Shown here piece by piece: positions 4,837-48,997 of a DNA stretch of 64,000 nt. Below the pieces are notes generated by a model, which saw nothing but the letters and a program-made list of their open reading frames with translations, was not told where the DNA came from and did not search any database. Position numbers and translations under genes: made by a program. Origin of the DNA: Pseudomonadota bacterium (GTDB lineage Bacteria > Pseudomonadota > Gammaproteobacteria > Acidiferrobacterales > Acidiferrobacteraceae); contig JAJYRD010000073.1 in assembly GCA_021794275.1 (NCBI GenBank), positions 1 to 64,000 of the forward strand. The letters run 5' to 3'. Position 1 is the first letter of the stretch. Every line of letters starts with the position of its first letter.

Positions 4837-5847
4837 ATGCTCGTGCTCGGTATCGAGACCTCCTGCGACGACACCGGCGTCGCGCTCTACGATCGCGACG
4901 CGGGGCTGCGCGCCCATGCGCTTTTCAGCCAAATGAGCCACGCCCTCTATGGCGGCGTGGTCCCCGAAATCGCCTCACGCGACCACATCCAGAAGCTGCT
5001 CCCGCTCATCGACGCCCTGCTCATCGACGCCGGGGTGGCCATCGATGACCTGGACGCGATCGCCTATACGGCTGGGCCGGGCCTCGCCGGGGCCTTGCTC
5101 GTGGGCGCGGCGCTTGCGCGCGCGCTCGCCTTCGCGCTCGCCATACCCGCGCTTGGCGTACATCACCTGGAAGGCCATCTCCTCGCGCCGCGACTCGAGC
5201 CCGAGGCGCCGGATTTTCCGTTTCTCGCCCTGCTCGTCTCCGGTGGGCACACCCTGCTTGCCGACGTCCAAGCGCTCGGGCAATACACGATCCTAGGTGA
5301 ATCGCGCGACGACGCCGCGGGCGAGGCCTTCGACAAGAGCGCCCAAGTCCTGGGCCTGGGCTTTCCGGGGGGGCCTGCCATCGGCAAGGCGGCCTCGCGA
5401 GGGCGCGAGACGGATCTCAGGCTACCACGCCCGCTCGTCGACCGCCCGGGCCTCGAGTTCAGCTTCAGCGGCCTGAAGACCGCGCTTTTGCAGGCTGCCC
5501 GCGAACGGCCCTTGGATGACGAGCGGCGTTGCGATCTTGCCTACGCCCTGCAAGACGCGATCGTCGACACCTTGGCCGTGAAGTGCCGCCGGGCACTGCT
5601 TCAGACCGGCCACGAGCGTCTGGTCATCGCAGGCGGCGTCGGGGCCAACCAAAGGCTGCGCGAGCGGCTCACGGACGAGGTGGCGGCCCTCGGGGCCAAG
5701 CTCTACTATCCGCGGCCGGCCTTCTGCACCGACAACGGCGCCATGATCGCCTACGCCGGCTGCCTGCGGCTCGCCGCCGGCCAAGCCGGCAACCAGGATT
5801 TCGGCGTCCGCCCCCGCTGGCCGCTCAGCGAGCTTTCGCCGCCTTAG
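4837..5847 (+). CDS. tsaD: tRNA N6-adenosine threonylcarbamoyltransferase TsaD
   Basis: [19 protein letters not shown]... with HHLEGH motif and ASKR family features; start placed at 4837. Confidence 0.97.
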
Positions 5848-6460
5848 CGCCGATCTTGGTCTCGCGGCCCGCGAGGAGATTGCGGATGTTGCTGCGATGG
5901 CGCCACAAGAGAAGCACGCTCATGACCGATGTGGCGGCAAAGAATACGCCGACATGGGCGCGCAGGGTCGCGGCCACCAGGAAAGGGGCGGCCACTGCGG
6001 CGGTGAGCGCCGCAAGCGACGAATAACGGAACGCCACCGCCACCACGAGCCAGATACCCAGAAGTCCGGCGCCCGCCACGGGGTCGATAGTCGCGAGCAC
6101 CCCAAGCGCCGTGGCCACGCCCTTGCCCCCGCGGAAACGAAAAAATACGGGATAAATGTGCCCGAGCAGCGCGCACAAAGCGACTGCCGCCACGATCCAC
6201 GGCGCGACCCCGAGGAGCCGCGCAACGGCCACCGGCAGCACCCCTTTGAGGATATCGCCGATTAAGGTGATAATGGCGGCCTTCTTGCCCCCGATGCGCA
6301 AGACATTGGTGGCCCCGGGATTGCCCGAACCCGCCTGGCGAGGGTCGGGCAATCCAAGCATCCGACTTGCCAAAATGGCCGTGGAAAGGGAGCCTAGGAG
6401 ATAGGCGAGCCCCGGCAAAACATAGGCCCAAATCGAGATATGCGTGACGGCGTTCCCCAA
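5825..6460 (-). CDS. plsY: Glycerol-3-phosphate acyltransferase PlsY
   Basis: Multi-[14 protein letters not shown] and [14 protein letters not shown] motifs. Confidence 0.95.
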
Positions 6461-6472
6461 GACAGTAGTGAC

Positions 6473-6841
6473 GTGCTGTATTTACACGATCTGAAAGCGG
6501 ATTGCATCATCGGGATCTGGGACTGGGAACGCCAGACCCGGCAGACTATCGTATTCGATCTCGACATGGCCGTCGACATTCGTGCCGCGGCGGTGTCCGA
6601 TGACATCCACGATGCCCTGGATTACAAGGCGGTCGCCAAACGCATCGTCGCATTCGTGGAGGCCTCGGAGTTTCGTCTCGTCGAGACCCTCGCGGAGCGC
6701 GTGGCGGAACTCGTCTTGCGCGAGTTTCCGGTCCCCTGGGTGCGCCTGCGCCTCGACAAGCGCGGCGCGATCCGCGGCGCGGGCCAAGTCGGACTCGTCA
6801 TCGAACGGCACCGCGCGAACCCCTCACGCGGCCGCCCCTAG
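6473..6841 (+). CDS. folB: Dihydroneopterin aldolase FolB
   Basis: VLYLHDLKADCIIGIWDWERQTRQTIVFDLDM...; GTG start at 6473 preferred over the ORF start at 6440, which overlaps plsY. Confidence 0.9.
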   Translation: MLYLHDLKADCIIGIWDWERQTRQTIVFDLDMAVDIRAAAVSDDIHDALDYKAVAKRIVAFVEASEFRLVETLAERVAELVLREFPVPWVRLRLDKRGAIRGAGQVGLVIERHRANPSRGRP

Positions 6842-6880
6842 AAATCCCCATAAACCAACCTCGAAAGGATACCCAGCCTT

Positions 6881-7435
6881 ATGTCTATGATATTCCGCGC
6901 CGCCTTGATCGGTATTCTGTCGCTCGCCACCGCTCATGCCGCCGGCTTTTATGTAGGCGCCAACGTCGGCGCCTCCGATGCCCAAGGTCTCGGCAATGCC
7001 GCAAGCGCGGGAATCTACGCGGGTTACGCCATCGACTCCTGGTTGACCGTGGAGGCCGGCTACAATCGTCTCGGACGCTGGCTCGGCCACGATCAAGGCC
7101 AGCCCTACACCACGATCGTCAACAATGTCGACGTGTCGCTGACCGCGGGACCCCGATTCGACCGCAGGTTCCGCGCCTACGGACGCATCGGCTTCGTGGA
7201 CTGGTCCACGATAGGCACGGGCGGCGGCGGCGAACACAGGATCACGGGGAGCTCGGCGCAGAATGACATGCTGGAGGAGTTGCACCAGGGATTTTACGGT
7301 CTGGGCGTATCCTATCGACTGAGACGTCGCATAGGCCTGCGCCTCGAATACCGCGTCTACCGGGCCATGGCGGTCAACGGCCACGATCTCGATATCCGCT
7401 CCATACTCTTCGGCGCCACCTATCACTTCGGCTGA
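6881..7435 (+). CDS. Outer-membrane beta-barrel protein (OmpA/OmpW-like fold)
   Basis: Signal peptide followed by alternating aromatic/hydrophobic strands ending in ...FGATYHFG (C-terminal aromatic near the end). Confidence 0.7.
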   Translation: MSMIFRAALIGILSLATAHAAGFYVGANVGASDAQGLGNAASAGIYAGYAIDSWLTVEAGYNRLGRWLGHDQGQPYTTIVNNVDVSLTAGPRFDRRFRAYGRIGFVDWSTIGTGGGGEHRITGSSAQNDMLEELHQGFYGLGVSYRLRRRIGLRLEYRVYRAMAVNGHDLDIRSILFGATYHFG

Positions 7436-8038
7436 GACCAACGGCTCCCGGGATGACCGATCATGAACTGCTCCCGCCAACCTTACGCTATGGCGTGAGC
7501 TTCGGCGCTTTCTGGTAGGTGGCCGGCCAGTCGCGCAAGGGCGAATTAGGCGGCAAGGCCATCGCAGCACGATCGATATCCGGGGAAGCGCCCGCCACCA
7601 TAAAGCCATTCCGGGGTGCGGGAGGCCTGCTTTTTCTGTGGTGGTGTAACGGATCGACGATCTGAAGGGTTTACACCGCGCCTTTCTCTATTTCTTATGG
7701 CGCGCCATCGCCATATTCCGACCAAGGTGACGCGGTCCGGGTCGACATCGGGACGATCCGGTAGGCGATGTCCTGGGGGGCTCCAAATCGTGTTGTTGCC
7801 ATCCGCGGACTGCGGACACGGGCGCTCGTTCACCAAGCGTGAGGGAAAGAACCGGCGGCCCCGCGAAGAGGCCCCTTAGACCTTGGGTGCCACCGCCTCT
7901 CATCACAAGCGCGGCGCGCCATGGGCCGCGGGCCCTCCCGCAAGACGGGTGGGCGGGGGCGGTACCTCGGTCACGCAGCGGCGAGAGACCGACTCGGGCC
8001 ACGGCGACGACCGACGGGGATGGCGGCGCGCGGGCCCC

Positions 8039-35144: not shown

Positions 35145-36569
35145 CTAATCGCGTGGCACGCGGTGCGGGATCTGATATTTGTCGAGTAAACGGTAGAGGG
35201 TCACGCGCGAGACACCGAGCGAGCGCGCCGAGCGCGACAGGTTGCCGCCGCTCTTCTCGATCGCATCGCAAATCGCCTCGCGCTCGGCGCGCTCGCGCGC
35301 CTCGGCCAGGGTCTCCTCGACGGGCACGTCGCGGTAGGAGCCGGTATAGTCCAGGCCCAGATCCTCGGGTCCTATCAACTGCCGCTCGCACATCACCATG
35401 GCGCGACGCACCCGATTGATGAGTTCGCGGACGTTTCCTGGCCAGTTGTGCTGGCTCAGGGCGACGAACGCGTCCCGGCTGAAGCCGCGCACCTGCGGGT
35501 TCTTTTCCGCGGCGAACATATCGAACCAGTGGCGCGCGAGGAGCGTGACGTCGCCCTCGCGGGCGCGCAAAGGCGGGACGTCGAGATTCAAGACGTTCAG
35601 GCGATAGTAGAGATCCTCCCGGAACCGCTTTTCGCCAACCGCCTTTTCGATATTCACGTGGGTTGCGGCAATGACGCGGATATCCGCATGCATGGTCTCC
35701 GTGCCGCCCACGCGCTCATAGGTTCCGCCTTGCAAGACCCGCAAGAGGTTCACCTGAAGATCCAGGGAAAGGTCTCCGATCTCGTCGAGAAAGAGCGTGC
35801 CCCCCTCAGCCGCCTCGATGCGCCCGATCTTGCGTTGATGAGCGCCCGTGAAGGCCCCCTTCTCGTGACCGAACAACTCCGACTGAATCAGCTTGTCGGG
35901 CAGCGCCCCGCAGTTCACGGCCACGAACGGACGCGAAGCGCGCGATGAATGGGCGTGAATGGCGAGCGCGCACAGTTCCTTGCCCGTGCCCGTCTCTCCC
36001 TGGATCAGGACCGGGGCGTCGGACTGGCTGATCTTTGCGATCCGCCGGAACGTGGCCTTCATCGCCTGGCTTGTGCCTATGATGTTCTTTTCAAAACGGT
36101 TCTCGGCCGATTGCTGCGGACGCACGCGGCTCAGGTTTGCCATGCCAAGCGCGTGGCCTAGGCTATGCAAAAGACGCGGCACATCGACGGGGACGACATG
36201 GAAATCGAGACAACATTCGCTTATGAGGTGATTCGCCACAGCGCTCTTCAGGAACGCGAGGTCAAGGATCGCGATCCACCGAAACCGACTGTTTCCATAG
36301 CCAAGCAGCGTCTCAGCCTCCGCTATCTCCTTCTCGCTGGCGTCCTGAAGGCACACAATCCCCACTCCCGCCCCCAGACGATCCATGTAGGTCCGCGCGG
36401 CACCCCACGCACCCGCGCGCGTCAGATTCCACCCGTGACCCGTGATGTCGCCCTCCCGGAACGGGAGGGTCTTCGCAGGGCAGTACACGAGCAGCGAACG
36501 TGATTCGCCGCCGAGACCAGCGCGAAATCCAAAACTTTCCGTCTTACGATCCAGCTGGTCCCCCGACAC
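35145..36569 (-). CDS. Sigma54-dependent Fis-family activator, VpsR-like
   Basis: AAA+ domain with GETGTGKE Walker A, GAFTGA sigma54-contact loop and C-terminal Fis-type HTH (GGNLSRSARSLGVSRVTLYRLLDKYQI). The N-terminus is a degenerate receiver-like region. Confidence 0.92.
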   Translation of the reverse strand: MSGDQLDRKTESFGFRAGLGGESRSLLVYCPAKTLPFREGDITGHGWNLTRAGAWGAARTYMDRLGAGVGIVCLQDASEKEIAEAETLLGYGNSRFRWIAILDLAFLKSAVANHLISECCLDFHVVPVDVPRLLHSLGHALGMANLSRVRPQQSAENRFEKNIIGTSQAMKATFRRIAKISQSDAPVLIQGETGTGKELCALAIHAHSSRASRPFVAVNCGALPDKLIQSELFGHEKGAFTGAHQRKIGRIEAAEGGTLFLDEIGDLSLDLQVNLLRVLQGGTYERVGGTETMHADIRVIAATHVNIEKAVGEKRFREDLYYRLNVLNLDVPPLRAREGDVTLLARHWFDMFAAEKNPQVRGFSRDAFVALSQHNWPGNVRELINRVRRAMVMCERQLIGPEDLGLDYTGSYRDVPVEETLAEARERAEREAICDAIEKSGGNLSRSARSLGVSRVTLYRLLDKYQIPHRVPRD

Positions 36570-36608
36570 CCCGCCTACCTCCTCCGTTTTTCTTCCTGTC
36601 TCGCCACG

Positions 36609-37685
36609 CTAGAACATCGTCGGTACGGTCAGGCTGAGATCGATATTGGGCGCGTCCTTCGTAAGCCCCACCCCCAGGTTCGTGACCACCGTCACCCTAC
36701 GACTGTCCGCATAAGACATACCAACGTTCAGGACGGCGGCATTGCCGCTGCTTCCGACGACCGACTGCCAAGCCCCCCCTTGGGGCTTGATCCGGGTCGC
36801 CGCAATAAAGGTCTCGTCCACGGACAGGGTCAAACTCACGCGCCGGTTCAGGGCGAAAGCGGTCCCGCCCCCAAGACTGAAGGAATTCCCGCCCGCCACC
36901 TGCCCTGGCTGGGGAATGTTCGTGCTTGCGATGTTGCTGAAACCCCGCGGCAGGTTGTAGGTGTAGCTCAGACTTCCGAACAGGATCGCGGGGCTCGCCG
37001 GCTTTATGAACGACAAACCCGTGGAGACCGACCACAGGCCGTTGCCCGTCGGTAAGGACTGGGGATAGCTCAAGTTGTTATTTTGGGGTTGCGTGACGAC
37101 CGGGATGCCGTAGGGACTGCGGCCGGTCGGCGCCTTGGCAGTCAGGTTCCATACGGTGGCAGACCCACCCTGACTCCCCGAAAGCTGGTAGTAAAGCGAT
37201 GCGCTCGCATCGCCGATCTCCCCTTTGTTTTGTACATCCTGCTGACTCGCCTGCAGGCTCGAGCTACCCGCGCCGACCGATTCATAGGTACTCTGCCGGG
37301 CAAGATAGGGGACCGTGAGGGACAGCTCAAAGTCGTTGGTCGGCGCGTAGCTTGCCTGGAGCGACAAGGTCTCGATATTACTCTGCACCTTGCTCACGTT
37401 GATTTGGCCCAGAAAGATCGCCCCCAGGGCGAGAAACCCGTTCAAGGTCAGGGAATTGCTATCCGAATAGGCGTAGCTTATGCCCGGCTGGAGGATGAGC
37501 TGCCCGGCCTTGAACAAGGCGTTTTGTTGGCGGTAGACCGCCTGAACACTTTCCTGGGCCTTCGGTTTATGCTGGACGCCGAGCGCGCCCTGGGGCGACG
37601 AGGAGGCCCACACGGGCTGTGCCACGACGAACGCCACGACAAGCCCCCACGAAACGGAACCACTCTTCCGTGCGCGCACGGTCAT
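36609..37685 (-). CDS. FapF-like outer-membrane beta-barrel transporter (functional amyloid export candidate)
   Basis: Signal peptide; short helical segment QESVQAVYRQQNALFKAGQLILQPGISYAYSDSNSLTLNGFLALGAIFLGQINVS, then a beta-rich sequence ending ...DLSLTVPTMF. Same strand and contiguous with Fap-like genes. Confidence 0.65.
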   Translation of the reverse strand: MTVRARKSGSVSWGLVVAFVVAQPVWASSSPQGALGVQHKPKAQESVQAVYRQQNALFKAGQLILQPGISYAYSDSNSLTLNGFLALGAIFLGQINVSKVQSNIETLSLQASYAPTNDFELSLTVPYLARQSTYESVGAGSSSLQASQQDVQNKGEIGDASASLYYQLSGSQGGSATVWNLTAKAPTGRSPYGIPVVTQPQNNNLSYPQSLPTGNGLWSVSTGLSFIKPASPAILFGSLSYTYNLPRGFSNIASTNIPQPGQVAGGNSFSLGGGTAFALNRRVSLTLSVDETFIAATRIKPQGGAWQSVVGSSGNAAVLNVGMSYADSRRVTVVTNLGVGLTKDAPNIDLSLTVPTMF

Positions 37686-37759
37686 TCTCCTTAAGCTGGC
37701 GTGGCGGGGATCGACACCCGGACCGGTGCCCGCCCCCTATTTATAGTTTTGTTATTCTT

Positions 37760-38713
37760 TCACTTATATCTAACAACTCCGCGCCGAGATGCGTGTAATG
37801 CGCCGTGGATCACCGCGGGAGCCAGTATCTCGACGTCCTCCCCGACCACGGACGCAGGCGCCTCGGGGCGCCCGATCTCGCACCCTTCCCCGATCCGGAT
37901 GCCGCCTTCGGCGACGATTGGTCCCCAGATCGCGCAACGCGGGCCTATAACGATGCCGCCTTCGCATACGAGCGCGCCCTCTATGACGCTGCCGGCCCCC
38001 ACCTCGAGGAGCCGACGCGCCTTGATGGATCCACGCCGTTTCGTTCCTGGAACGAGCGTTACCGCTTCGCGAGCCACCGTGTCCGCGTCCGCCACCCCCC
38101 GCGGCAGCGTTCTGCGTACCCCGCGTTGTGCATGGCCCAACAGAATGGTCGGCGCCGTCATCGATGCGAACTCGCATGGCGCGTCGATCTTTATCGTTTT
38201 ATTGGCCGAGGCGCGGCCGAGGATGCGGCAATTGCCTTCCACCTCGAGGTCGGCGTCGGCGTGACACCAACGAATGATCGTGGAATTCCAGTTCAGATGC
38301 AAGGTGTCTGCCGCATAGAGGGCGCGATAGATGCCGTCTTCGCCGGTACGCAAAGACCCTTCGCACGCTACCTCTTTGTGGCAGGCGAGCGACGCCGGCA
38401 AGGCCAGATCGCCGAAGGAGTAACTCATCTTGTTCGCGCACCCCGCCGGCGCCTGCCGCATGGACGCAGGCAACACCAAAAGTGGCTCGCCGTCCACTCG
38501 ATATTCGGCGACCGCGGTTACGGGTTGCGCGACCAGCATAAGATGCGCGCGCAACTTCGCGATCAGGCTCCGGGCGAAATGATCCGGCGCATAGGCGGCC
38601 TCCGATAGCGGCGGGGGCCCGAGGGCATCCCTGCGACGCAGGAAAAGCCCCGCAGTCGGTATGAAAGGAAGGGCAAATACCATAAATGTCGCTGCAATCA
38701 ATAGGGCTAGCAT
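37760..38713 (-). CDS. Polymer-forming (bactofilin-like)/hexapeptide-repeat membrane protein
   Basis: N-terminal TM; C-terminal hexapeptide-like beta-helix pattern (VIEGALVCEGGIVIGPRCAIWGPIVAEGGIRIGEGCEIG). Confidence 0.65.
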   Translation of the reverse strand: MLALLIAATFMVFALPFIPTAGLFLRRRDALGPPPLSEAAYAPDHFARSLIAKLRAHLMLVAQPVTAVAEYRVDGEPLLVLPASMRQAPAGCANKMSYSFGDLALPASLACHKEVACEGSLRTGEDGIYRALYAADTLHLNWNSTIIRWCHADADLEVEGNCRILGRASANKTIKIDAPCEFASMTAPTILLGHAQRGVRRTLPRGVADADTVAREAVTLVPGTKRRGSIKARRLLEVGAGSVIEGALVCEGGIVIGPRCAIWGPIVAEGGIRIGEGCEIGRPEAPASVVGEDVEILAPAVIHGALHASRRGVVRYK

Positions 38714-38722
38714 GGTATATCC

Positions 38723-40066
38723 TCAGGGTCCTACGGGCGCGACTGGATCCGTCGCGCTCTTGCGGTCCCGGTAGCGGGGCGTCTTGTGCCAGCGGACCCG
38801 CCCTGGACGCACGACGTCGCCGAGCGCCCTGAAAAAGCCGGCCGTTGCAGCGTAGGTGGAGACGAAGAAGCCGATAAGGATCAGTGGCACGCCCTTGACC
38901 TTGTCGCGCTCGCCGTCCAGACGCAAGGCCGCAGCGATCTCATAGAAGGCCGCGGCATTGCCGAAGGTGCCGTAGCTCACGACCGCCAGCATGAGCAAAA
39001 GGCCGCTGCCGTTGTCACCGCAGAGCCAGAGGACATACAGCACGAGCCAGCCGAGCAAGAGGATGGGGGCCATGGCGTAGATCCCGAGCAGGAGCGCCCC
39101 GTCGAAGCGCTCTCGCCGTGTCGCATACGGCGACCGCAGAAGCGGCAGCAGATGGCGAAACAATGCCTGATTGTGCCCCTGTGACCATCGGCGCAGCTGG
39201 CGATAGCGGGCATGCCATGACTCCACGACCTCTTCGTAACACTCCGAGCGGTTTTGGTAGGCAACCCTCCAGCCGGCAATGGCAAGCCGATAGGTTATAT
39301 CAGTGTCCTCGGCCAAAGCGTAGGGATTCCAACCTCCAACAGCCTGCAGGGCCGAGACGCGTACGCCCCCCACTGTCCCGCCAAACTGGGGAATCAGACG
39401 CAGGTTCGCGCGCGCCTGTTGGTCCACCTGGTAGCCGCCGGAGCGCTCCAATTCGAGCAGATGCGTAAGGAGATTAGTGTCGCTGTTGTAGGGGACCACG
39501 CGCCCCATGACCCCGCCTACCTCGGGATCGAAGAAGGGTGCCACGAGCTGCTTTACGAGGCCTGGGCCCGGCAGGTAGTCGGCGTCGAAGACCAGCGCGA
39601 TATCGCCCGCTACCAGCGCCGTGGCATCGACCAGGGCTGCGGCCTTGCCCGGCATTGCATCCTTGGCCCTGTGCAGCACCTCGATGCGACCCGGATGGAC
39701 GCGGGCGAAGGCATCAAGGATCTCCGCCGTCCGGTCCACGGAACGATCGTCGACGCAGAGGATCTTCAGGCGTTCGGCCGGATAGTCCACCGCCACCACC
39801 CGCTCGAGGATCTGCTCTATGACCTGCTCCTCGTTGTGGGCGGGAATGATGACCGTCACCGGAGGCCAATCAGCCTGGGTGATATCGAGATAGAGATGGC
39901 GTTGGCGACCAAAGAGACGGTTCACGGTGAAGAAAAGATGGCGGACCGTATAAAAGAGGACCACTGACACGATGACAAGCGCGATCGGCTGCAGGAGCGC
40001 GATCAGGCCCGCATGCGCCTGCCAGGCGCGGGCGGCCAGAGATAGAGCGGCCGCGCCCCTACTCAT
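38723..40066 (-). CDS. Processive family-2 glycosyltransferase (exopolysaccharide synthase)
   Basis: VTVIIPAHNEEQVIEQIL, DDRSVD, FDADYLPGPG, ED, and RQLRRWSQGH (QxxRW); flanking TM helices. Confidence 0.9.
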   Translation of the reverse strand: MSRGAAALSLAARAWQAHAGLIALLQPIALVIVSVVLFYTVRHLFFTVNRLFGRQRHLYLDITQADWPPVTVIIPAHNEEQVIEQILERVVAVDYPAERLKILCVDDRSVDRTAEILDAFARVHPGRIEVLHRAKDAMPGKAAALVDATALVAGDIALVFDADYLPGPGLVKQLVAPFFDPEVGGVMGRVVPYNSDTNLLTHLLELERSGGYQVDQQARANLRLIPQFGGTVGGVRVSALQAVGGWNPYALAEDTDITYRLAIAGWRVAYQNRSECYEEVVESWHARYRQLRRWSQGHNQALFRHLLPLLRSPYATRRERFDGALLLGIYAMAPILLLGWLVLYVLWLCGDNGSGLLLMLAVVSYGTFGNAAAFYEIAAALRLDGERDKVKGVPLILIGFFVSTYAATAGFFRALGDVVRPGRVRWHKTPRYRDRKSATDPVAPVGP

Positions 40067-40868
40067 AACGCGACCTCCAACTCATACCCCAGGAATAGAC
40101 CGCCACAAGACCCATCACGTCCAGCAGAATACCCGCAAGCAAAAATAAGGTCGGTAGGGCTACGAGGCCTAAGCTTCTGACTGCGAAGGCCTGTAGACAA
40201 AACTGGCATGGAAGGGCCACGGCAAGCCATGTAAGCGCAACGAGCGTGAGGGCGATCTTTTTGGTCACGCTGAAATCCAGCGGGTAATAGATGGCCATGA
40301 ACATAAGCGGGGTCACGACCATGAGCGCAAGCCCCATGAGCAGCATGGATTGGATGTAGCCCACGAGGACGTAGGGGAACGGCGTGAGCAAAGGCGTGAA
40401 GGCCGCGGCGCCCACGACAAACACCACGGCCAAGGTAAAGAGCGCGAGCGCAAGAGGGAGATGGCGGCGGCGCAGAAACAGGGCCATGAGCAGATCGACC
40501 ACAAGCAGCGCGGCGCATATCATCCAGGCCTCACGCGTGGGGGATGTGGCGGCGAGGTCGGGGACCGGGATCGCAAGGTTCGCGCGCCAAGGTAGGGCGT
40601 ACGGGACCAGTATGACCTTTACGACAGGCGCCGCCTGGCCGCACCAAAAGGCCTCGATGGCGCCCCACAAGGGCAGAATGATCGGCCGTGCCAGGAGCCC
40701 GACAGCCAGAGCGAATAGTGGGCCCATGAGCAGGGAAGGGCGCCGCCAGCCCTGCTCGCGCGGCATAATGCGCAAGCCCCGGTGGGCGGGAATCAGGCCG
40801 CCGCGCCAACCCTCGATGGGGATCACCCGACGCACGCCGGGGTCCTGGTCAGAAATGGTAGAAGACAC
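40059..40868 (-). CDS. Multi-pass membrane protein of the exopolysaccharide module
   Basis: 269 aa with several hydrophobic segments; 8-bp overlap with the GT2 gene and 20-bp overlap with the upstream barrel gene. Confidence 0.7.
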   Translation of the reverse strand: MSSTISDQDPGVRRVIPIEGWRGGLIPAHRGLRIMPREQGWRRPSLLMGPLFALAVGLLARPIILPLWGAIEAFWCGQAAPVVKVILVPYALPWRANLAIPVPDLAATSPTREAWMICAALLVVDLLMALFLRRRHLPLALALFTLAVVFVVGAAAFTPLLTPFPYVLVGYIQSMLLMGLALMVVTPLMFMAIYYPLDFSVTKKIALTLVALTWLAVALPCQFCLQAFAVRSLGLVALPTLFLLAGILLDVMGLVAVYSWGMSWRSRYE

Positions 40869-41628
40869 CTATGGATCCTCCGGTCTGCCGGTAGTAGGGG
40901 CTTGCGAAACGCTCCGCGGATAGGTCGGTGCCCCAGTGGAGGCCGAGCCATTGCCGCCAGGCGACGGACAGCGTGTGGCTACGGAAACCCACAAGCGCGG
41001 CAAGCGCACCAATTGGGAGATAGGCCTCCGTGCCCCAACCGTAACGAAGCGTCACCTCACTCCATCCGCCGTGGTCGTAAGAAACCGCCACGAAACTCCT
41101 TTGTGCCCGGACTGCGCCCGGGTTGCTGGTCACCCAGGAGTGTCCGGCCATCGCGACCCAATGCGCGGGAAAATAGGCCGTGAGATTGGCCCAGCCGCTG
41201 CGGTCATCGTGACCGTCCCGAAAACGAATGCCGGTGTAACCGGCCGTCGCCACCAAGCGCTTGTCAGCCAGAGCCTTGTAGGAAAGGCTCGTGTCGATGC
41301 GATCCTTAGGCACAACGTTCGAGGTCGTACTCGCGGCCATACTTAGATAACCGTACCAGCGCGGGGCGAAGGTCCGCGTGACGCCAAATACGCCGTAGCT
41401 CTCCTCGTAGCCGAAGATGCGGGCATGGTCGACCTCCCAATCCCATATGGTGTGTGATCCCTCACCGAACACCCCCTTCACATAGAGGCCCTCGAAACGG
41501 CCATAGCCATGGGTCAATTGATAGTACGAGCCGCCTGCCCCCACCCATCCATGACCGAAGGCGACGGACGGGAAAACAACGGCAAGCGCCGCCACGAACG
41601 CCCCGACGCGATATCGCCTCCTTTTCAT
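40849..41628 (-). CDS. YaiO-like outer-membrane beta-barrel protein
   Basis: Signal peptide; GWVGAGGSYYQLTHGYGRFEGLYVKGVFG...; C-terminal GGSIGVFYHF; start at 41628. Confidence 0.75.
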   Translation of the reverse strand: MKRRRYRVGAFVAALAVVFPSVAFGHGWVGAGGSYYQLTHGYGRFEGLYVKGVFGEGSHTIWDWEVDHARIFGYEESYGVFGVTRTFAPRWYGYLSMAASTTSNVVPKDRIDTSLSYKALADKRLVATAGYTGIRFRDGHDDRSGWANLTAYFPAHWVAMAGHSWVTSNPGAVRAQRSFVAVSYDHGGWSEVTLRYGWGTEAYLPIGALAALVGFRSHTLSVAWRQWLGLHWGTDLSAERFASPYYRQTGGSIGVFYHF

Positions 41629-42797
41629 GACGCGGCGACCGGTCGGGCGCGACCCGTGCCGCCGCGCGCCGACGAGGACAGGGCGCGCCCCCGCCAGGTC
41701 TTGGTAAGGACCGATGCAATCCGGCGCCCCGCGGTGCCGTCCCCGAAGGGGGAATGGGTGGGGCGCATCGCCTCCCACCTTTCCGGGGAACGATGGAGAC
41801 GGCCGATCTCCGCCTCTATGCGGCGTGCATCGGCTCCCACCAAGCGCCCTGCGCCACAGCTCACGACCTCGGGCCGCTCGGTCTGTCGGCGCGCGATCAG
41901 AACCGGCACACGCACGCTCGCCGCTTCTTCCTGCAGGCCTCCGGAGTCGGTTACAACCAGCCACGCGTCCCTGAGCGCCCGCAACATGTCAGGATAAGTC
42001 AGCGCGTTGGACAGAGACACGCGTTTGCGGGCGTCCGCCGGCAGGCCCAGCCAGGTCGCCTTGACGGCCGCCGCGACTTCAGGGTTCGGGTGGAGCGGCC
42101 AGAGCACGGTCACGTCAGCGAAGCGCTCCACGACACGCCTCATGGCGCGCCCGATCTCGTTGATCCCCGCCCCCCAATTCTCCCGGCGATGGGCGGTCAC
42201 GACGATGAGGCGCTCGGACGCAGACCTCCACCTGCCAGGTCGCGCCTCCAGCCGGGCGTAACCGAAGAGGGCCGCGTCGACGACGGTATTGCCAGTCAAC
42301 GTGATGGCCTTTAAGGGGACGCCCTCCTTACGCAGGTAAGCCTGGGCAAGCGGTGTGGGTGCGAAATGCCAGGTGGCCATGCGCGTGATGAGTCGGCGGT
42401 TCATCTCCTCCGGAAAGGGCTCGTCCGCGTCGCCGGAGCGCAGACCCGCCTCCACATGCGCGACCGGCACCTTGTGGTAAAAACCGAGCAACGCGCCGAC
42501 GAAGGCGGTGGTGGTATCCCCCTGGACCACCACGACATCGGGGGCCACCTCCATCACAATCGGATCGAGCCGGGCCAAGAGTCGCGCACTCAGCTCGGCA
42601 AGCCCAGATCCGCGCCGGCCGAGACTCACGGTCGCAAACGGCCGCACCTCCAAAAACCGACAGAGCTCCGATATCGCCGCCACATGTTGTCCGCTATGGA
42701 CAAGAAAGACCTCGCAGCCCAACGCCTCGAGGGCATGAACAACGCTGGCCGTCTTGATGATCTCCGGCCGCGTCCCTGTCAATATCAAAATCCGCAT
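41625..42797 (-). CDS. wecB: UDP-N-acetylglucosamine 2-epimerase (non-hydrolysing)
   Basis: MRILILTGTRPEIIKTASVVHAL...HVEAGLRSGD, TAHRRENWG, LVVTDSGGLQEEA; start at 42797. Confidence 0.94.
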   Translation of the reverse strand: MRILILTGTRPEIIKTASVVHALEALGCEVFLVHSGQHVAAISELCRFLEVRPFATVSLGRRGSGLAELSARLLARLDPIVMEVAPDVVVVQGDTTTAFVGALLGFYHKVPVAHVEAGLRSGDADEPFPEEMNRRLITRMATWHFAPTPLAQAYLRKEGVPLKAITLTGNTVVDAALFGYARLEARPGRWRSASERLIVVTAHRRENWGAGINEIGRAMRRVVERFADVTVLWPLHPNPEVAAAVKATWLGLPADARKRVSLSNALTYPDMLRALRDAWLVVTDSGGLQEEAASVRVPVLIARRQTERPEVVSCGAGRLVGADARRIEAEIGRLHRSPERWEAMRPTHSPFGDGTAGRRIASVLTKTWRGRALSSSARGGTGRARPVAAS

Positions 42798-42953
42798 CAG
42801 CTCCCCGTCGTTGGAGGATCGTGGCCACACATCGCCGCACATCCCCACGACCCCCTCCTCCGCTGATCCACAACGCATACGTCTACCCCGAAATGCCCCG
42901 CCACCGTGGCCGGCCACCTCTATGGGTGCGCGGCTATCCACGATCGGCGGATG

Positions 42954-43736
42954 TCAAAGCCCCTTCATGGTCCCAAGGATCGCGCCGATCTGCGCGGCGG
43001 AGAACCCCCCCGAGCGCGCAAGCCCTACGCTCAAGCTCATCTGGTTCATGACATTGTTGGCGCTCGACAAGACCTGTGCGGTTTGCGCCAAACCTTGCGC
43101 GCCCAAGGTCTGCTGGATGATCCCCTGCCCCGGCACGTTCACTGCCACGATCACGGAATCACCATTGAACACCACCTGGCCTTGCGCATCGGCGTTGGCC
43201 ACGGCGAGATTCGCCGGCCCCCCGCCCGGACTGCCCGCGTCGAACCCAGATCCAGCCGCCCCCACACTGATCACGGCCGTGTTCTTTATGACGTTGTCAT
43301 TGCCTGTGGTCTGTATGCCCTGACCGATACCGGAGACGCCGGCGACCGGATCCCCTTTGATGGCCCCCGTGCCTTGTAAGGCCGGACTGCCCGTTCCCGC
43401 GGCCTTGGTCGAAAAACTGTGCAGGGTAAGGTGTGGTCGCCCGCCGCCATCGATGCCTAAGCCAAGCGTCGTGCCCACGGCAAGGCTCGACCCGTTCGCC
43501 TGCGTCCAGCGACTCACCATCTGGAGGCCAAAATAGACCACGCCCCCCGACGCCACGTAGCGACCGCGCAACGCGGAAAGCGCGTGGGCCGAAAGCGGTA
43601 TCCGATCCGTGATGAGGCCTAGATCGGGGGCAAAGAGCGTGGCCGCCTGGACTGAGACTGCCATGGCGCAAAAGGCGCCCCCTATTACCATCCGGACTAC
43701 AGCCCGTAGACTCCACTCGCTCTTCCTCTTGTCCAT
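42954..43736 (-). CDS. FapE-like protein of the functional amyloid cluster
   Basis: Signal peptide; LSALRGRYVASGGVVYFGLQMVSRWTQANG..., then Gly/Asn/Ala-rich IGQGIQTTGNDNVIKNTAVI; adjacent to the C39 protease and repeat protein genes. Confidence 0.6.
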   Translation of the reverse strand: MDKRKSEWSLRAVVRMVIGGAFCAMAVSVQAATLFAPDLGLITDRIPLSAHALSALRGRYVASGGVVYFGLQMVSRWTQANGSSLAVGTTLGLGIDGGGRPHLTLHSFSTKAAGTGSPALQGTGAIKGDPVAGVSGIGQGIQTTGNDNVIKNTAVISVGAAGSGFDAGSPGGGPANLAVANADAQGQVVFNGDSVIVAVNVPGQGIIQQTLGAQGLAQTAQVLSSANNVMNQMSLSVGLARSGGFSAAQIGAILGTMKGL

Positions 43737-43770
43737 ACCGCTCCTTCGCATCTGATCAGGAAGTCCTTCA

Positions 43771-44457
43771 TCAAAAATCGGTGGCGGGGATGAAACCAAA
43801 GTCCCGCAGATTTCGCGCCTCGTTCCTTTCCATAGCCGCCATCAGACCATGCACTCGTACCGCCTTCATGCCCTGACGCAGAGGTGTGGCCTTGTCGTAG
43901 TGAGGACCCATGACGATAAAAACGACATCGTCCCAATCCTTCACGAAGCGGGCGACCGGAAGGCTGCGGTCGCCCAACGCGGGATCGGCTAGATAGGCCC
44001 GGCCCCGCACCACCCCCCGCAACACCACGAAATGCTCGTAACCCTCGATATTGAGCAACACCACCACCGGCACCCGAAGCTTTGTCAGCAAAACCGGCGG
44101 CACCTTGTAGCCGGCGCCATGCAGTCCAAGCTGGGAGAGGTAGCGAGCCATATCCAGCATCGAAAATCCCTTCTGCTGTACCACCTGGCGGTTGCTTACC
44201 TTAAGCATCCCGACGATCACCTGGTCCTCCGACAGATGCCGGCCATAGGCAAAATCGACGAGGGTGGCAAGCGCCGCGGCCCCGCAGCTATAGTCGGTGT
44301 GCTGGCGTACCACCGCCCGGAACTTCCGGGCCTGCATGCTGGCAACGTGCGTAATGAGCGGCACGCCCCCGAATCCGTTGACGACGATCGTGCCCGCCTG
44401 CGCCAGAGCCGGCATCATGGCAAGCCCCATGATCCACAGTCGAAGACGATACGGCAT
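43771..44457 (-). CDS. C39-family papain-like peptidase (FapD-like)
   Basis: VRQHTDYSCGAAALATLVDFAYGRHLSEDQVI...LLNIEGYEHFVVLRGVVRGRAYLADPALG: catalytic Cys, His and Asp pattern; signal peptide. Confidence 0.85.
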   Translation of the reverse strand: MPYRLRLWIMGLAMMPALAQAGTIVVNGFGGVPLITHVASMQARKFRAVVRQHTDYSCGAAALATLVDFAYGRHLSEDQVIVGMLKVSNRQVVQQKGFSMLDMARYLSQLGLHGAGYKVPPVLLTKLRVPVVVLLNIEGYEHFVVLRGVVRGRAYLADPALGDRSLPVARFVKDWDDVVFIVMGPHYDKATPLRQGMKAVRVHGLMAAMERNEARNLRDFGFIPATDF

Positions 44458-44473
44458 CTTTTTTCCCTTCTTT

Positions 44474-44504
44474 AAAAAAGGGGCGGGGGTTCACACCCCC
44501 GCCC
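44474..44504 (-). terminator. Intrinsic-terminator-like hairpin between the fapC-like and fapD-like genes
   Basis: Minus strand GGGCGGGGGT-GTGA-ACCCCCGCCC followed by CTTTTTT; perfect 10-bp stem, about 12 nt after the fapC-like stop. Confidence 0.8.
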
Positions 44505-44516
44505 ACAGTGCGAGCC

Positions 44517-46691
44517 TTAGTCCGCGTCCGCTATGCTCAAGGTGTTGCGCTGCATGTTGACCGCGCCCGCCGAAACGTTCAGGCCGATATCGCCCGACGC
44601 GTCTTGGAGGACGTGGTTTGATACGGTCGCGCTGTTGGTGACCGGCGTATATGGCAGGAAGCTCGCCGGCTTGTCCGCGACGATGGCGCCTATAGACACC
44701 TGCGACACCTGGGTCAACGCGGTCGCGTTGCTGCCGCCGCGATCGAACGCGTAGGCCAGGTCGTTGCTCTGCATGTTCTGCACACCCGCAGAGACGTTGG
44801 CGCCGATGTTGCCCGTCGCGTGGCGCAGGACGTTATTGGCGACGCTCGCACCGTTATGGGCGCCGGTCTCGGTCGCGAAGGAGTAGGGCCCGGAGGTCTG
44901 GGCGCCCACGATCGAGGCCGTGGCCGGCCCACCGAGCACCACGCCCCAACCGAGCGCCATGGCGGTGTTATTGGCCTGGGTATTCTGCACGCCCGAAGCC
45001 ACGTTCACGCCGATGCTGCCAGAGGCGTTCTCCAGGACACGGTTCGAGAGCGAGGCAGTCATGGCGCCCAAGGTGTTGCGGGTGGTCGACGGCGCGTACC
45101 AGTAGTAACTGATCGCCTGGTTGCTCGCCTGGTTGTCGGCGATGGCGGCCGTGGTGGCGGTGCTGCTGCCAGCAGCACCCGCGGCATCCGAGATGGCGAG
45201 ATTGTTGCCCTGCTCGTTCCACTGGCCCGCGGCGAGATTCGCCCCCACGTTGCCCGTCGCGTTCTGAAGGACACGATCGTTCAGGTAGGCGTTGTCGGCG
45301 GCATAGAGGCTGACCGACTTGCGAGCGCTGTTACTAAACATGCTCTCGGTACCCTGGTCGTTGTCGATTGCCGAACTCGCGCTCGCGCCAGCCTCGTTGT
45401 AGGCCAGGCCCATATTGTTGGCCTGCATGTTGTCGGCGCCGGAGGCAAGGTTCGCATTCACGTCGCCGCGCGCGTTTTGGAGAACGCGGTTGGTCATGAA
45501 GGCGTCATCGTCGCCGAAGTAGCTGTACGAACCGCCGAGCGGGCCAGCGTTCTGACCGTTCGCGACGCTGGAAGTGGCTGCGCCGCCCGTCGCCGTCACC
45601 TGATCCATGGCGATCGACGCATTGTTGGCCTGCATGTTCTGCGTGCCGGCCGCAGCGTTCACGCCGATATGGCCCGAGGCATTCTGCAGTACGACATTTG
45701 AGAGCGAGGCGTCGTTGTCGGACCCGATGTTCTCGCTGCCGGCGGCGGCGGGGCCATTTTGGCTGTTAGACGTGCTGGCGCTGGCCGATCCTGCGGCACT
45801 CGTGACGCCGGTGGTCGCAAGCGAGAGGCTGTTGGCCTGCATGTTCTGCTGACCGGCAGCCAGGTTCGCGCCTATGTTGCCGGTGGCGTTCTGCAAGACG
45901 TGATTGGCAAGGGTCGCGTCGTTGTCAGCACCCGATGTCATGGCGCCTATGAGACCCGCGGCTTGGAAGCTCGCGGCGGCCGCGTTGGCATCGACGCCGC
46001 TACGGTTGTAGGAAACCGCCAGGTTATTGCCCTGCAGGTTCTCGTCGCCCGCGGCGGCATTTACGCCGATGTCGCCCGAAGCGTTCTGCAGTACGCGGTT
46101 CGAGAGGGTCGCGGTGTCGTTGTTGTCGGAGGCGCCGGCCAACGCGAAAGGTCCCGAGAACTGTGCACTGTTGATGGCCGCCGACGCCTGTCCGCTCGGG
46201 CTCACACCTAGGCCTGAGCTCACCGCAGCACTGTTGCCCTGCATATTGGCACCGCCTGCGGCAAGGTTCAGGCCGATCTTGCCCGAAGCGTTCTGCAGGA
46301 CATGGTTGGAGGCCGCCGCGGTATTGACGACGCTTTTCGAGCCGCTCGCGGAGAAGATGTTGCTCCACTGCAGATTATTCACGACTGAGGAGGCGGTCGT
46401 ATTCGTGAGCAACGAGCCGTTCGCAAGCGCGATGTCGGTGTTGTTGACCTGCATGTTGCCGTTACCGGCGGCGGCGTTCAGGCCGACATTGCCGGAGGCG
46501 TTCTGTAGGACGTGATTGGAGGCCGTGGCGCCATTGGTCGAGCCAGCAGCGAAATTGAAAGACGCTCCCGCTATCTGGGAATTGGTCGCGGTCGCATGGG
46601 CCACACCGGTTGGGTTGGCCATGACCACGGGGGCCGCCAACGCCATGCCGACGGCCGCCGCTATGGTACGAAATTTCCACTGTGTTGCCAT
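44517..46691 (-). CDS. FapC-like repeat protein, candidate major functional amyloid subunit
   Basis: 724 aa, signal peptide, no Cys, few charged residues; ten imperfect ~31-aa repeats of the form (S/A)N.VLQNA.G.IG.N.AAG..NMQ.NN..IA. Confidence 0.75.
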   Translation of the reverse strand: MATQWKFRTIAAAVGMALAAPVVMANPTGVAHATATNSQIAGASFNFAAGSTNGATASNHVLQNASGNVGLNAAAGNGNMQVNNTDIALANGSLLTNTTASSVVNNLQWSNIFSASGSKSVVNTAAASNHVLQNASGKIGLNLAAGGANMQGNSAAVSSGLGVSPSGQASAAINSAQFSGPFALAGASDNNDTATLSNRVLQNASGDIGVNAAAGDENLQGNNLAVSYNRSGVDANAAAASFQAAGLIGAMTSGADNDATLANHVLQNATGNIGANLAAGQQNMQANSLSLATTGVTSAAGSASASTSNSQNGPAAAGSENIGSDNDASLSNVVLQNASGHIGVNAAAGTQNMQANNASIAMDQVTATGGAATSSVANGQNAGPLGGSYSYFGDDDAFMTNRVLQNARGDVNANLASGADNMQANNMGLAYNEAGASASSAIDNDQGTESMFSNSARKSVSLYAADNAYLNDRVLQNATGNVGANLAAGQWNEQGNNLAISDAAGAAGSSTATTAAIADNQASNQAISYYWYAPSTTRNTLGAMTASLSNRVLENASGSIGVNVASGVQNTQANNTAMALGWGVVLGGPATASIVGAQTSGPYSFATETGAHNGASVANNVLRHATGNIGANVSAGVQNMQSNDLAYAFDRGGSNATALTQVSQVSIGAIVADKPASFLPYTPVTNSATVSNHVLQDASGDIGLNVSAGAVNMQRNTLSIADAD
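44520..46520 (-). repeat. Ten in-frame coding repeats (~31 aa) separated by ~35-50 aa variable linkers
   Basis: Repeats start SNHVLQNASGNVGLN, SNHVLQNASGKIGLN, SNRVLQNASGDIGVN, ANHVLQNATGNIGAN, SNVVLQNASGHIGVN, TNRVLQNARGDVNAN, NDRVLQNATGNVGAN, SNRVLENASGSIGVN, ANNVLRHATGNIGAN, SNHVLQDASGDIGLN. Confidence 0.93.
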
Positions 46692-46749
46692 ATACCTCTC
46701 CTTTTCGTGTTAATAGAAAACGGCCTTCTGTCGAGCCGGCCCTGCACCC

Positions 46750-47364
46750 CTACGGGCGTATGCCCGCAGATATGTTCAATGTGACACTGTTGCTCAAGCT
46801 GTTGCCGGACCCCGCGGTCTGGCTCACCTGAGCGATCCCGGTAACCCCCGTCAAAGCGTTGTCAGCGACCGTGACGTGGCGCGCACCCTTCGGCGATGTG
46901 GTCACGTGGGCCCCATTGACCTGATCGATGGGTGATGCGATGCGCATCAGCTGGTCGAGGCTTAGGCGATGGACCGAGCGCGTGATCGTGACGCTATTGG
47001 CCTCGAGGTTGTCGCTGCCAGCCGCCTGATTCACATTCAAGATGCCCGAGAAACGCGCAAAGGCGTCGCCCGCTATGCGCGCCGAACTGGTCGCGCCGCC
47101 ACCAACCCTTCCCGATAGTCGCTGACTGATCCCGATCTCGGCGTGGGACCCATTAGTAACCGCATCGCTATTGGCCTGAACGTTGCCGTCGCCTGCCGCC
47201 TCATTGATCGTGGCGACGCCCTTGCCGTCGGCGAGCGCCGACCCGGCGAGCACTGCCGCATTGGATATGGCAAGCGGGTCGGCGCCGCAAATCCTGGTCA
47301 CCGCGAGGAGCGGGACCGAAAGCCCGACGACAATGAGTACAGTCCGATTCATCATCCCACCCAT
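46750..47364 (-). CDS. FapB-like minor amyloid subunit/nucleator candidate
   Basis: Signal peptide; three related motifs: GKGVATINEAAGDGNVQANSDAVT, FSGILNVNQAAGSDNLEANSVTIT, VTGIAQVSQTAGSGNSLSNSVTLN. Start may be at 47352/47355. Confidence 0.65.
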   Translation of the reverse strand: MGGMMNRTVLIVVGLSVPLLAVTRICGADPLAISNAAVLAGSALADGKGVATINEAAGDGNVQANSDAVTNGSHAEIGISQRLSGRVGGGATSSARIAGDAFARFSGILNVNQAAGSDNLEANSVTITRSVHRLSLDQLMRIASPIDQVNGAHVTTSPKGARHVTVADNALTGVTGIAQVSQTAGSGNSLSNSVTLNISAGIRP

Positions 47365-47423
47365 TCGTGAAACTGATGGCGAAGGTTCGAAGAGGAACCC
47401 GCGCCAAAGATGGGAGCGCCATT

Positions 47424-47439
47424 AACAAGAACCGTGCCA
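47424..47439 (-). promoter_or_regulatory. Putative sigma54 (-24/-12) promoter of the amyloid/EPS cluster
   Basis: TGGCACGGTTCTTGTT on the minus strand versus consensus TGGCACG-N4-TTGC(A/T); one mismatch (C to T in the -12 element). About 60 nt upstream of the fapB-like start. Confidence 0.65.
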
Positions 47440-47667: not shown

Positions 47668-47687
47668 CTGTATCTAACACGATACAG
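47668..47687. promoter_or_regulatory. Dyad CTGTATC-TAACAC-GATACAG, candidate activator binding site
   Basis: Perfect 7+7 inverted repeat ~230 bp upstream of the putative sigma54 promoter. It lies just after the xthA stop, but a T-tract typical of a terminator is absent. Confidence 0.4.
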
Positions 47688-48538: not shown

Positions 48539-48997
48539 CTAACTCTTGGGGGCCTTGAGGTAGCCGGCGGCCGCCAGCTCGTTTTTCAAGGCTGAGTGGA
48601 TATAGCCCACGAGGACGTCACGCCCCACGGTCACGGTCGGCACGGTCGTCGCTCCAGTCTTCTGCTTCATGCCCTGCAGTACCGACCGCCCGCGCGAGAC
48701 GTCGATGCTGCGAAACGGGACTCCGCGGCGGTGCAGATAGGCGCTCACCTCCCGGCAGGGCGCGCAATGCGGAGCCCGGTACAAAACCACGGGGTGCAGG
48801 GCGCTCAGGGCCTTACGTACCGCGGAAGGCGAGGTACGGCCATGCACATGCATGACGTGCACATGGTGGGCCGACGAGGGGGGCGGGGTATTCTGGTAGG
48901 TGACAACCCCGTTGGGGCCGACCCAGCGATACAAGGTCGCGGCATGCGCCGCCCCCACGCAGATCAGGACACCGGCCCAAGCCATTCGGCGCGTCAT
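48539..48997 (-). CDS. DUF4124 domain plus glutaredoxin-like domain protein
   Basis: ATLYRWVGPNGVVTYQNTPPP (DUF4124-like) fused to VVLYRAPHCAPCREVSAYLHRRGVPFRSIDV. Confidence 0.8.
   Translation of the reverse strand: MTRRMAWAGVLICVGAAHAATLYRWVGPNGVVTYQNTPPPSSAHHVHVMHVHGRTSPSAVRKALSALHPVVLYRAPHCAPCREVSAYLHRRGVPFRSIDVSRGRSVLQGMKQKTGATTVPTVTVGRDVLVGYIHSALKNELAAAGYLKAPKS

Follow-up and report, generated by a model that had tools for sequence, protein, structure and literature searches.

The window, a stretch of 64,000 nucleotides from an acid-mine bacterium of the genus Acidiferrobacter, contains a locus of eleven open reading frames on the minus strand, running from 47364 to 35145. Our ORF calls and translations gave the transcription order fapB-fapC-fapD-fapE-wecB-yaiO-memP-GT2-bacL-fapF-sigma54 activator, which is the same-strand order given in the preliminary description of this DNA. 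Its five-gene polysaccharide module between fapE and fapF was also borne out. The genes are:

46750-47364, minus strand: fapB homologue, nucleator or minor subunit (NF058557, 1.5e-28)
44517-46691, minus strand: fapC homologue, major amyloid subunit, 10 repeats about 70 aa apart (NF058558, 1.5e-54)
43771-44457, minus strand: fapD homologue, C39 peptidase (NF058616, 1.8e-60; PF03412, 1.6e-17)
42954-43736, minus strand: fapE homologue (NF058559, 1.8e-26)
41625-42797, minus strand: wecB, UDP-GlcNAc 2-epimerase, which makes UDP-ManNAc (TIGR00236, 3.6e-106)
40849-41628, minus strand: YaiO-type outer-membrane beta barrel, predicted polysaccharide exporter (PF19413, 5.7e-23; TIGR04390, 2.7e-33)
40059-40868, minus strand: MemP, polytopic inner-membrane protein matching no Pfam or NCBIfam family
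38723-40066, minus strand: processive GT2 polysaccharide synthase (PF13641, 5.1e-33; PgaC model, 1.7e-33, below cut-off)
37760-38713, minus strand: BacL, membrane-anchored bactofilin-like beta-helix protein (PF04519, 0.0044, below cut-off)
36609-37685, minus strand: fapF homologue, barrel and plug without the N-terminal coiled coil (NF058560, 5e-98, model positions 98-420)
35145-36569, minus strand: VpsR/BrfA-type sigma54 activator (PF20161 VpsR, 2e-23; PF00158, 8.7e-72; HTH_8 of the Fis type; GAFTGA motif)

The intergenic distances are 58 bp (fapB-C), 59 bp (fapC-D), 34 bp (fapD-E), 9 bp (GT2-bacL), 74 bp (bacL-fapF) and 39 bp (fapF-activator), and there are overlaps of 4 bp between wecB and yaiO, about 20 bp between yaiO and memP, and 8 bp between memP and GT2. 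Most gaps are thus under about 80 bp or negative, as previously stated, with the exception of the 156 bp between fapE and wecB. This locus is best read as a Fap amyloid operon with a five-gene exopolysaccharide cassette built in between fapE and fapF.

The five Fap candidates were compared with the Fap family HMMs, and all of them matched their own NCBIfam models, following the gene order, at E-values between 1.8e-26 and 5e-98. Every score was below the curated equivalog cut-off, as expected for distant homologues. In the PDB, the FapF profile (A1) matched the FapF crystal structures 5o65 (1.2e-122), 5o67 and 5o68 over the barrel. The ten repeats of FapC are Asn/Gln repeats. The Fap system at this locus is real, and amyloid formation itself is predicted from these proteins.

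The locus was compared with the fapABCDEF system of Pseudomonas and its RpoN/BrfA control (PMC3792158, PMC5557850, PMC9207406). The two are alike in the order of FapB, C, D, E and F, in the sigma54 promoter element and in the VpsR-domain activator gene beside fapF. In contrast to Pseudomonas, the activator gene here is on the operon strand, five polysaccharide genes separate fapE and fapF, and fapA is missing. A search of the genome with NF058556 found no fapA, while the same search was positive in two Pseudomonas genomes. The lack of fapA noted previously is therefore real but not distinctive: 6 of 16 genera have no fapA (PMC3792158), and its presence is therefore not defining for Fap systems.

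Two further differences concern the Fap proteins themselves. FapC has 8 to 10 close repeats, about 70 residues apart, in the FapF clade of this locus, versus 2 to 3 in Pseudomonas and most other clades. The FapF of the window has a short N-terminus; its match to NF058560 begins at model position 98, and there is no coiled coil. Since the coiled coil of Pseudomonas FapF is required for secretion (PMC5557850), export must work differently here. Short FapF was also found in Halomonas, without the cassette, and the coiled coil was accordingly not treated as defining outside Pseudomonas. Both traits, the short FapF and the repeat-rich FapC, recur in the sister genus G014, which has no cassette. Neither trait therefore follows from the cassette, and the idea that the cassette led to loss of the coiled coil was rejected. 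Among the 80 named fap loci described below, FapF was short and fapA absent in 10, short and present in 5, long and present in 61, and long and absent in 4; the tendency of a short FapF to accompany fapA absence is confounded by phylogeny.

The cassette proteins suggested what kind of polymer may be produced. The GT2 (447 aa) contains the D-D, DAD, ED and QxxRW motifs. YaiO is the only YaiO in the genome. The locus wecB was the only wecB in all five cassette genomes checked, and wecB was absent in three genomes without the cassette. In Escherichia coli, NfrB probably uses UDP-ManNAc from WecB, and NfrB synthases without another WecB in the genome always have wecB adjoining nfrB (PMC8669469). 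Taking the sole wecB together with this analogy, we infer that the product is probably a synthase-dependent, ManNAc-derived polysaccharide.

The cassette shares with the Nfr/NGR system of E. coli (NfrB, NfrA, WecB; PMC8669469, PMC8669472) a processive GT2 with a linked wecB for UDP-ManNAc supply and an outer-membrane barrel. In contrast to Nfr/NGR, the 447 aa GT2 is without the MshEN c-di-GMP domain, which neither Pfam nor NCBIfam detected in it, the YaiO barrel has no TPR, and MemP and BacL are extra. Because of the missing MshEN domain and the YaiO-type barrel, we regard the cassette as working like Nfr and did not file it as a member. PNAG was rejected as the product, as the GT2 resembles PgaC weakly, with 116 bits against an equivalog cut-off of 422; neither the PgaA TPR barrel nor PgaB was found at the locus.

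MemP and BacL have less clear relatives. MemP probably starts upstream of the ATG at 40766, and it is conserved in the genus, in G317b and in the stand-alone cassette of G391. Its predicted fold was of low confidence (pLDDT 70), and a structure search with it gave no match. BacL matches PF04519 at 17.7 bits, below the gathering cut-off of 27.9. Its AlphaFold2 model (mean pLDDT 87.7) has N-terminal helices and a beta-helix; in the PDB this model matched mixed beta-helices, none of them strong or decisive. BacL was also considered as a hexapeptide acetyltransferase. This assignment was rejected, for the Pfam and NCBIfam matches were all sub-threshold and the fold matched mixed beta-helices.

The regulatory features found in and upstream of the operon are:

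47669-47686, unstranded: dyad TGTATC-N6-GATACA, predicted activator site, the only exact copy in this genome
47578-47597, unstranded: second, imperfect dyad of the form TGTATC-N-GATACA, predicted activator site
47424-47439, minus strand: predicted sigma54 -24/-12 promoter TGGCACGGTTCTTGTT, core invariant in 10/10 genus loci
44481-44504, minus strand: strong terminator-like hairpin followed by a T-run in the fapC-fapD gap, predicted to act as a partial attenuator, similar in 10/10 genus loci
37740-37757, minus strand: AT-rich element conserved ahead of fapF in an alignment of 9 loci, which may be an internal promoter or a binding site

The best conserved block in the interval between xthA and fapB, TGGCA(C/T).GTT.TTGTTA, lies upstream of fapB. 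It reads GT rather than GC at -12, and its core TGGCA..GTT.TTGTTA is the part that does not vary among the ten loci. No clear equivalent of this promoter was established in G317. Pattern search found the exact dyad in some genus members only, and in G005 and G002 it is located elsewhere. A c-di-GMP cyclase gene (GGDEF) of G005 with an upstream dyad was dropped as a target, because its orthologues have no dyad upstream. The position of the fapC-fapD hairpin is conserved, and G317b and G014 have hairpins of other sequence. The AT-rich element stands in a genome of 64% GC. In other genera, -24/-12-like elements occur upstream of fap about 510-526 bp before fapB in Pseudomonas and about 1 kb upstream in Halomonas.

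The last gene of the operon encodes a protein of the BrfA/VpsR type, which combines a VpsR N-terminal domain, a sigma54 ATPase domain with GAFTGA and a Fis-type HTH, and adjoins fap. A sigma54 activator matching the VpsR-type profile was found beside fap in 64 of the 80 named loci (about 80%), and the VpsR domain was confirmed in all seven fap-linked activators sampled. The fapA-E promoter of P. fluorescens PF07 depends on an RpoN -24/-12 element, and expression of fap requires BrfA, whose gene adjoins fapF (PMC9207406). VpsR and BerB sense c-di-GMP (PMC5552954). The preliminary description listed a sigma54 activator among these genes; it is corrected here in that the gene belongs to fap itself. 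With the P. fluorescens precedent, the simplest reading is that it is a fap activator under which the cassette came. Control of fap by sigma54 may, from these sequences, be general.

The proposal that fibre and polysaccharide form one co-produced unit is supported in its regulatory part, as the promoter, the activator gene and the tight or overlapping genes point to a single regulatory unit. Predicted co-regulation of the two is well supported by anatomy and precedent. We consider it likely that this is one regulated operon making Fap amyloid and a polysaccharide, driven by its activator from the sigma54 promoter upstream of fapB. The VpsR/BrfA-type activator would bind the dyads, which lie about 210-320 bp ahead of fapB, and would drive RNA polymerase-sigma54 at the -24/-12 element at 47424-47439. 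The hairpin 3' of fapC would halt part of the transcripts, so that fapB and fapC are made in excess, and read-through would yield FapD, FapE, the polysaccharide machinery, FapF and the activator. As the activator would be made from its own operon, a positive feedback loop would result. WecB would supply UDP-ManNAc, and GT2, with MemP and BacL as putative partners, would polymerise a chain of ManNAc or a related sugar across the inner membrane. The YaiO barrel would release the polysaccharide, FapF would export the Fap subunits, and cells would switch on fibre and polysaccharide together.

The alternative that survives best is that two independent matrix systems share one address, the cassette having its own promoter and function and lying in fap by historical accident. 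We regard this as possible but not probable. The neighbourhood survey, which bears directly on it, found the same gene order in ten Acidiferrobacter genomes including that of the window (two loci end at a contig edge and one has a vpsR insertion) and in G317, which belongs to another family and also has a second, conventional fap locus. This conservation is far beyond chance, and together with the overlapping genes it argues against independence. In the aligned loci no conserved sigma54-like or sigma70-like block was recognised in the fapE-wecB gap, which also speaks against a promoter of the cassette's own. However, the 156 bp gap and the AT-rich element could house promoters; with the fapF-vpsR distance of 206-280 bp in some relatives, they make internal promoters possible.

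Several natural contrasts bear on this as well; fap without an intact cassette (G014, G012) and the cassette without fap (G391) favour independence. The sister genus G014 has fapBCDEF and the activator without the cassette, and a search of its fapE-fapF gap for cassette remnants gave none above chance. On contig 140 of G012, fapB, C, D and E are present and fapF runs to the contig end; the cassette is eroded to wecB pieces and a broken bacL, and the fap set lacks nothing visible. G012 has two versions of the locus and some contamination, so it is uncertain which species owns which. From these two cases, fap does not need the cassette. Conversely, wecB, GT2, bacL, yaiO and memP stand together in G391 (L177) with no fap genes within 10 kb. 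This stand-alone cluster differs from ours also in carrying a deacetylase-like and another large protein, and G267 (L178) has a partial cassette without fap (YaiO and GT2 with BacL pieces). Since the five families occur together without fap, the cassette is a portable unit of its own that was joined to fap. In G001 and G011 (L197 and L196) the site is empty: xthA lies next to gcvT, and fap, the cassette and the activator are all missing from the interval, a joint absence that speaks for a single unit. The divergent gene in this interval is one that we take to be PhnD-like. In G007 only a piece of the activator is left, beside xthA.

To place the arrangement more widely, 80 named fap loci (L089-L168, flanks of about 10 kb) were picked with the window FapF profile. 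No homologue of any cassette gene was found within about 10 kb in 73 of the 80, a figure that is not a census, since resemblance to the window FapF decided which loci were picked, and most are from Pseudomonas and Halomonas. The remaining seven comprised three full cassettes, one eroded cassette, two loci whose GT2 lies near fap in a different arrangement, and one with a lone wecB.

The ten hybrid loci and G014 grouped as a supported clade (97/93) in the FapF tree. This requires two label changes: one gain of the cassette with a loss in G014 costs the same as two gains. A wider FapF clade (89/97) includes loci with other GT2 or exporter genes beside fap. YaiO and GT2 follow fapF in G015 (L030), a GT2 and a TPR/PgaA-like barrel stand beside fap in G334 (L081) and the isolate YP4.bin20 (L162), and GT2 and BacL are divergent from fap in DBS1-2.bin29 (L095). 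Outside the wider clade, a GT2 adjoins fapF in G044. That such genes adjoin fap again and again within this FapF clade argues against two systems sharing an address by accident, although this repeated neighbourhood is no more than suggestive.

A second alternative goes further than co-regulation and is unlikely in our view: one envelope complex would export both polymers, which bind each other into a co-assembled composite, with BacL or MemP, for example, bridging the synthase to FapF. That the cassette lies between fapE and fapF, with bacL adjoining fapF, fits such a complex, as do the FapF without coiled coil and the enlarged FapC of the clade. However, G014 has the same FapF and FapC without the cassette, Halomonas has short FapF without it, and the relative with the eroded cassette retains fap. 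It is similarly doubtful that, in acidophiles, the Fap exporter and the polysaccharide synthase and exporter form one envelope assembly that secretes a composite in a fixed proportion set by the sigma54 promoter and the fapC attenuator. Least probable is that, instead of forming a free exopolysaccharide, the cassette product serves to glycosylate or cap Fap proteins or the outer membrane: the small synthase, the dedicated wecB and the lack of a deacetylase or lyase here, unlike in the G391 cassette, would suit this role, but the GT2 has the processive QxxRW signature and an accompanying outer-membrane barrel.

The amyloid and the polysaccharide of biofilm matrices are usually encoded at separate sites that are co-regulated from a distance. 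Under the preferred reading of a single regulated operon, the genes for both stand here behind one predicted promoter. Natural contrasts are available in the complete locus, fap without cassette, the eroded cassette, the cassette without fap and the empty site. With them one can ask directly, in bacteria that matter for mineral leaching and acid mine drainage, if joint production of fibre and polysaccharide is obligatory. The locus also offers a model, at sequence level, of how fap is regulated outside Pseudomonas. In a literature search of limited coverage, no paper linking Acidiferrobacter with functional amyloid and no fap-polysaccharide operon turned up.

Three minor observations were made in and around these loci. 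In L028 (G009), about 1.1 kb of inserted DNA splits the activator gene (52-2806). In L029 (G004), fapC lies in two overlapping reading frames (5088-7519), a possible frameshift or assembly error. Upstream of the locus in the window, a DUF4124-glutaredoxin fusion protein is encoded at 48539-48997.
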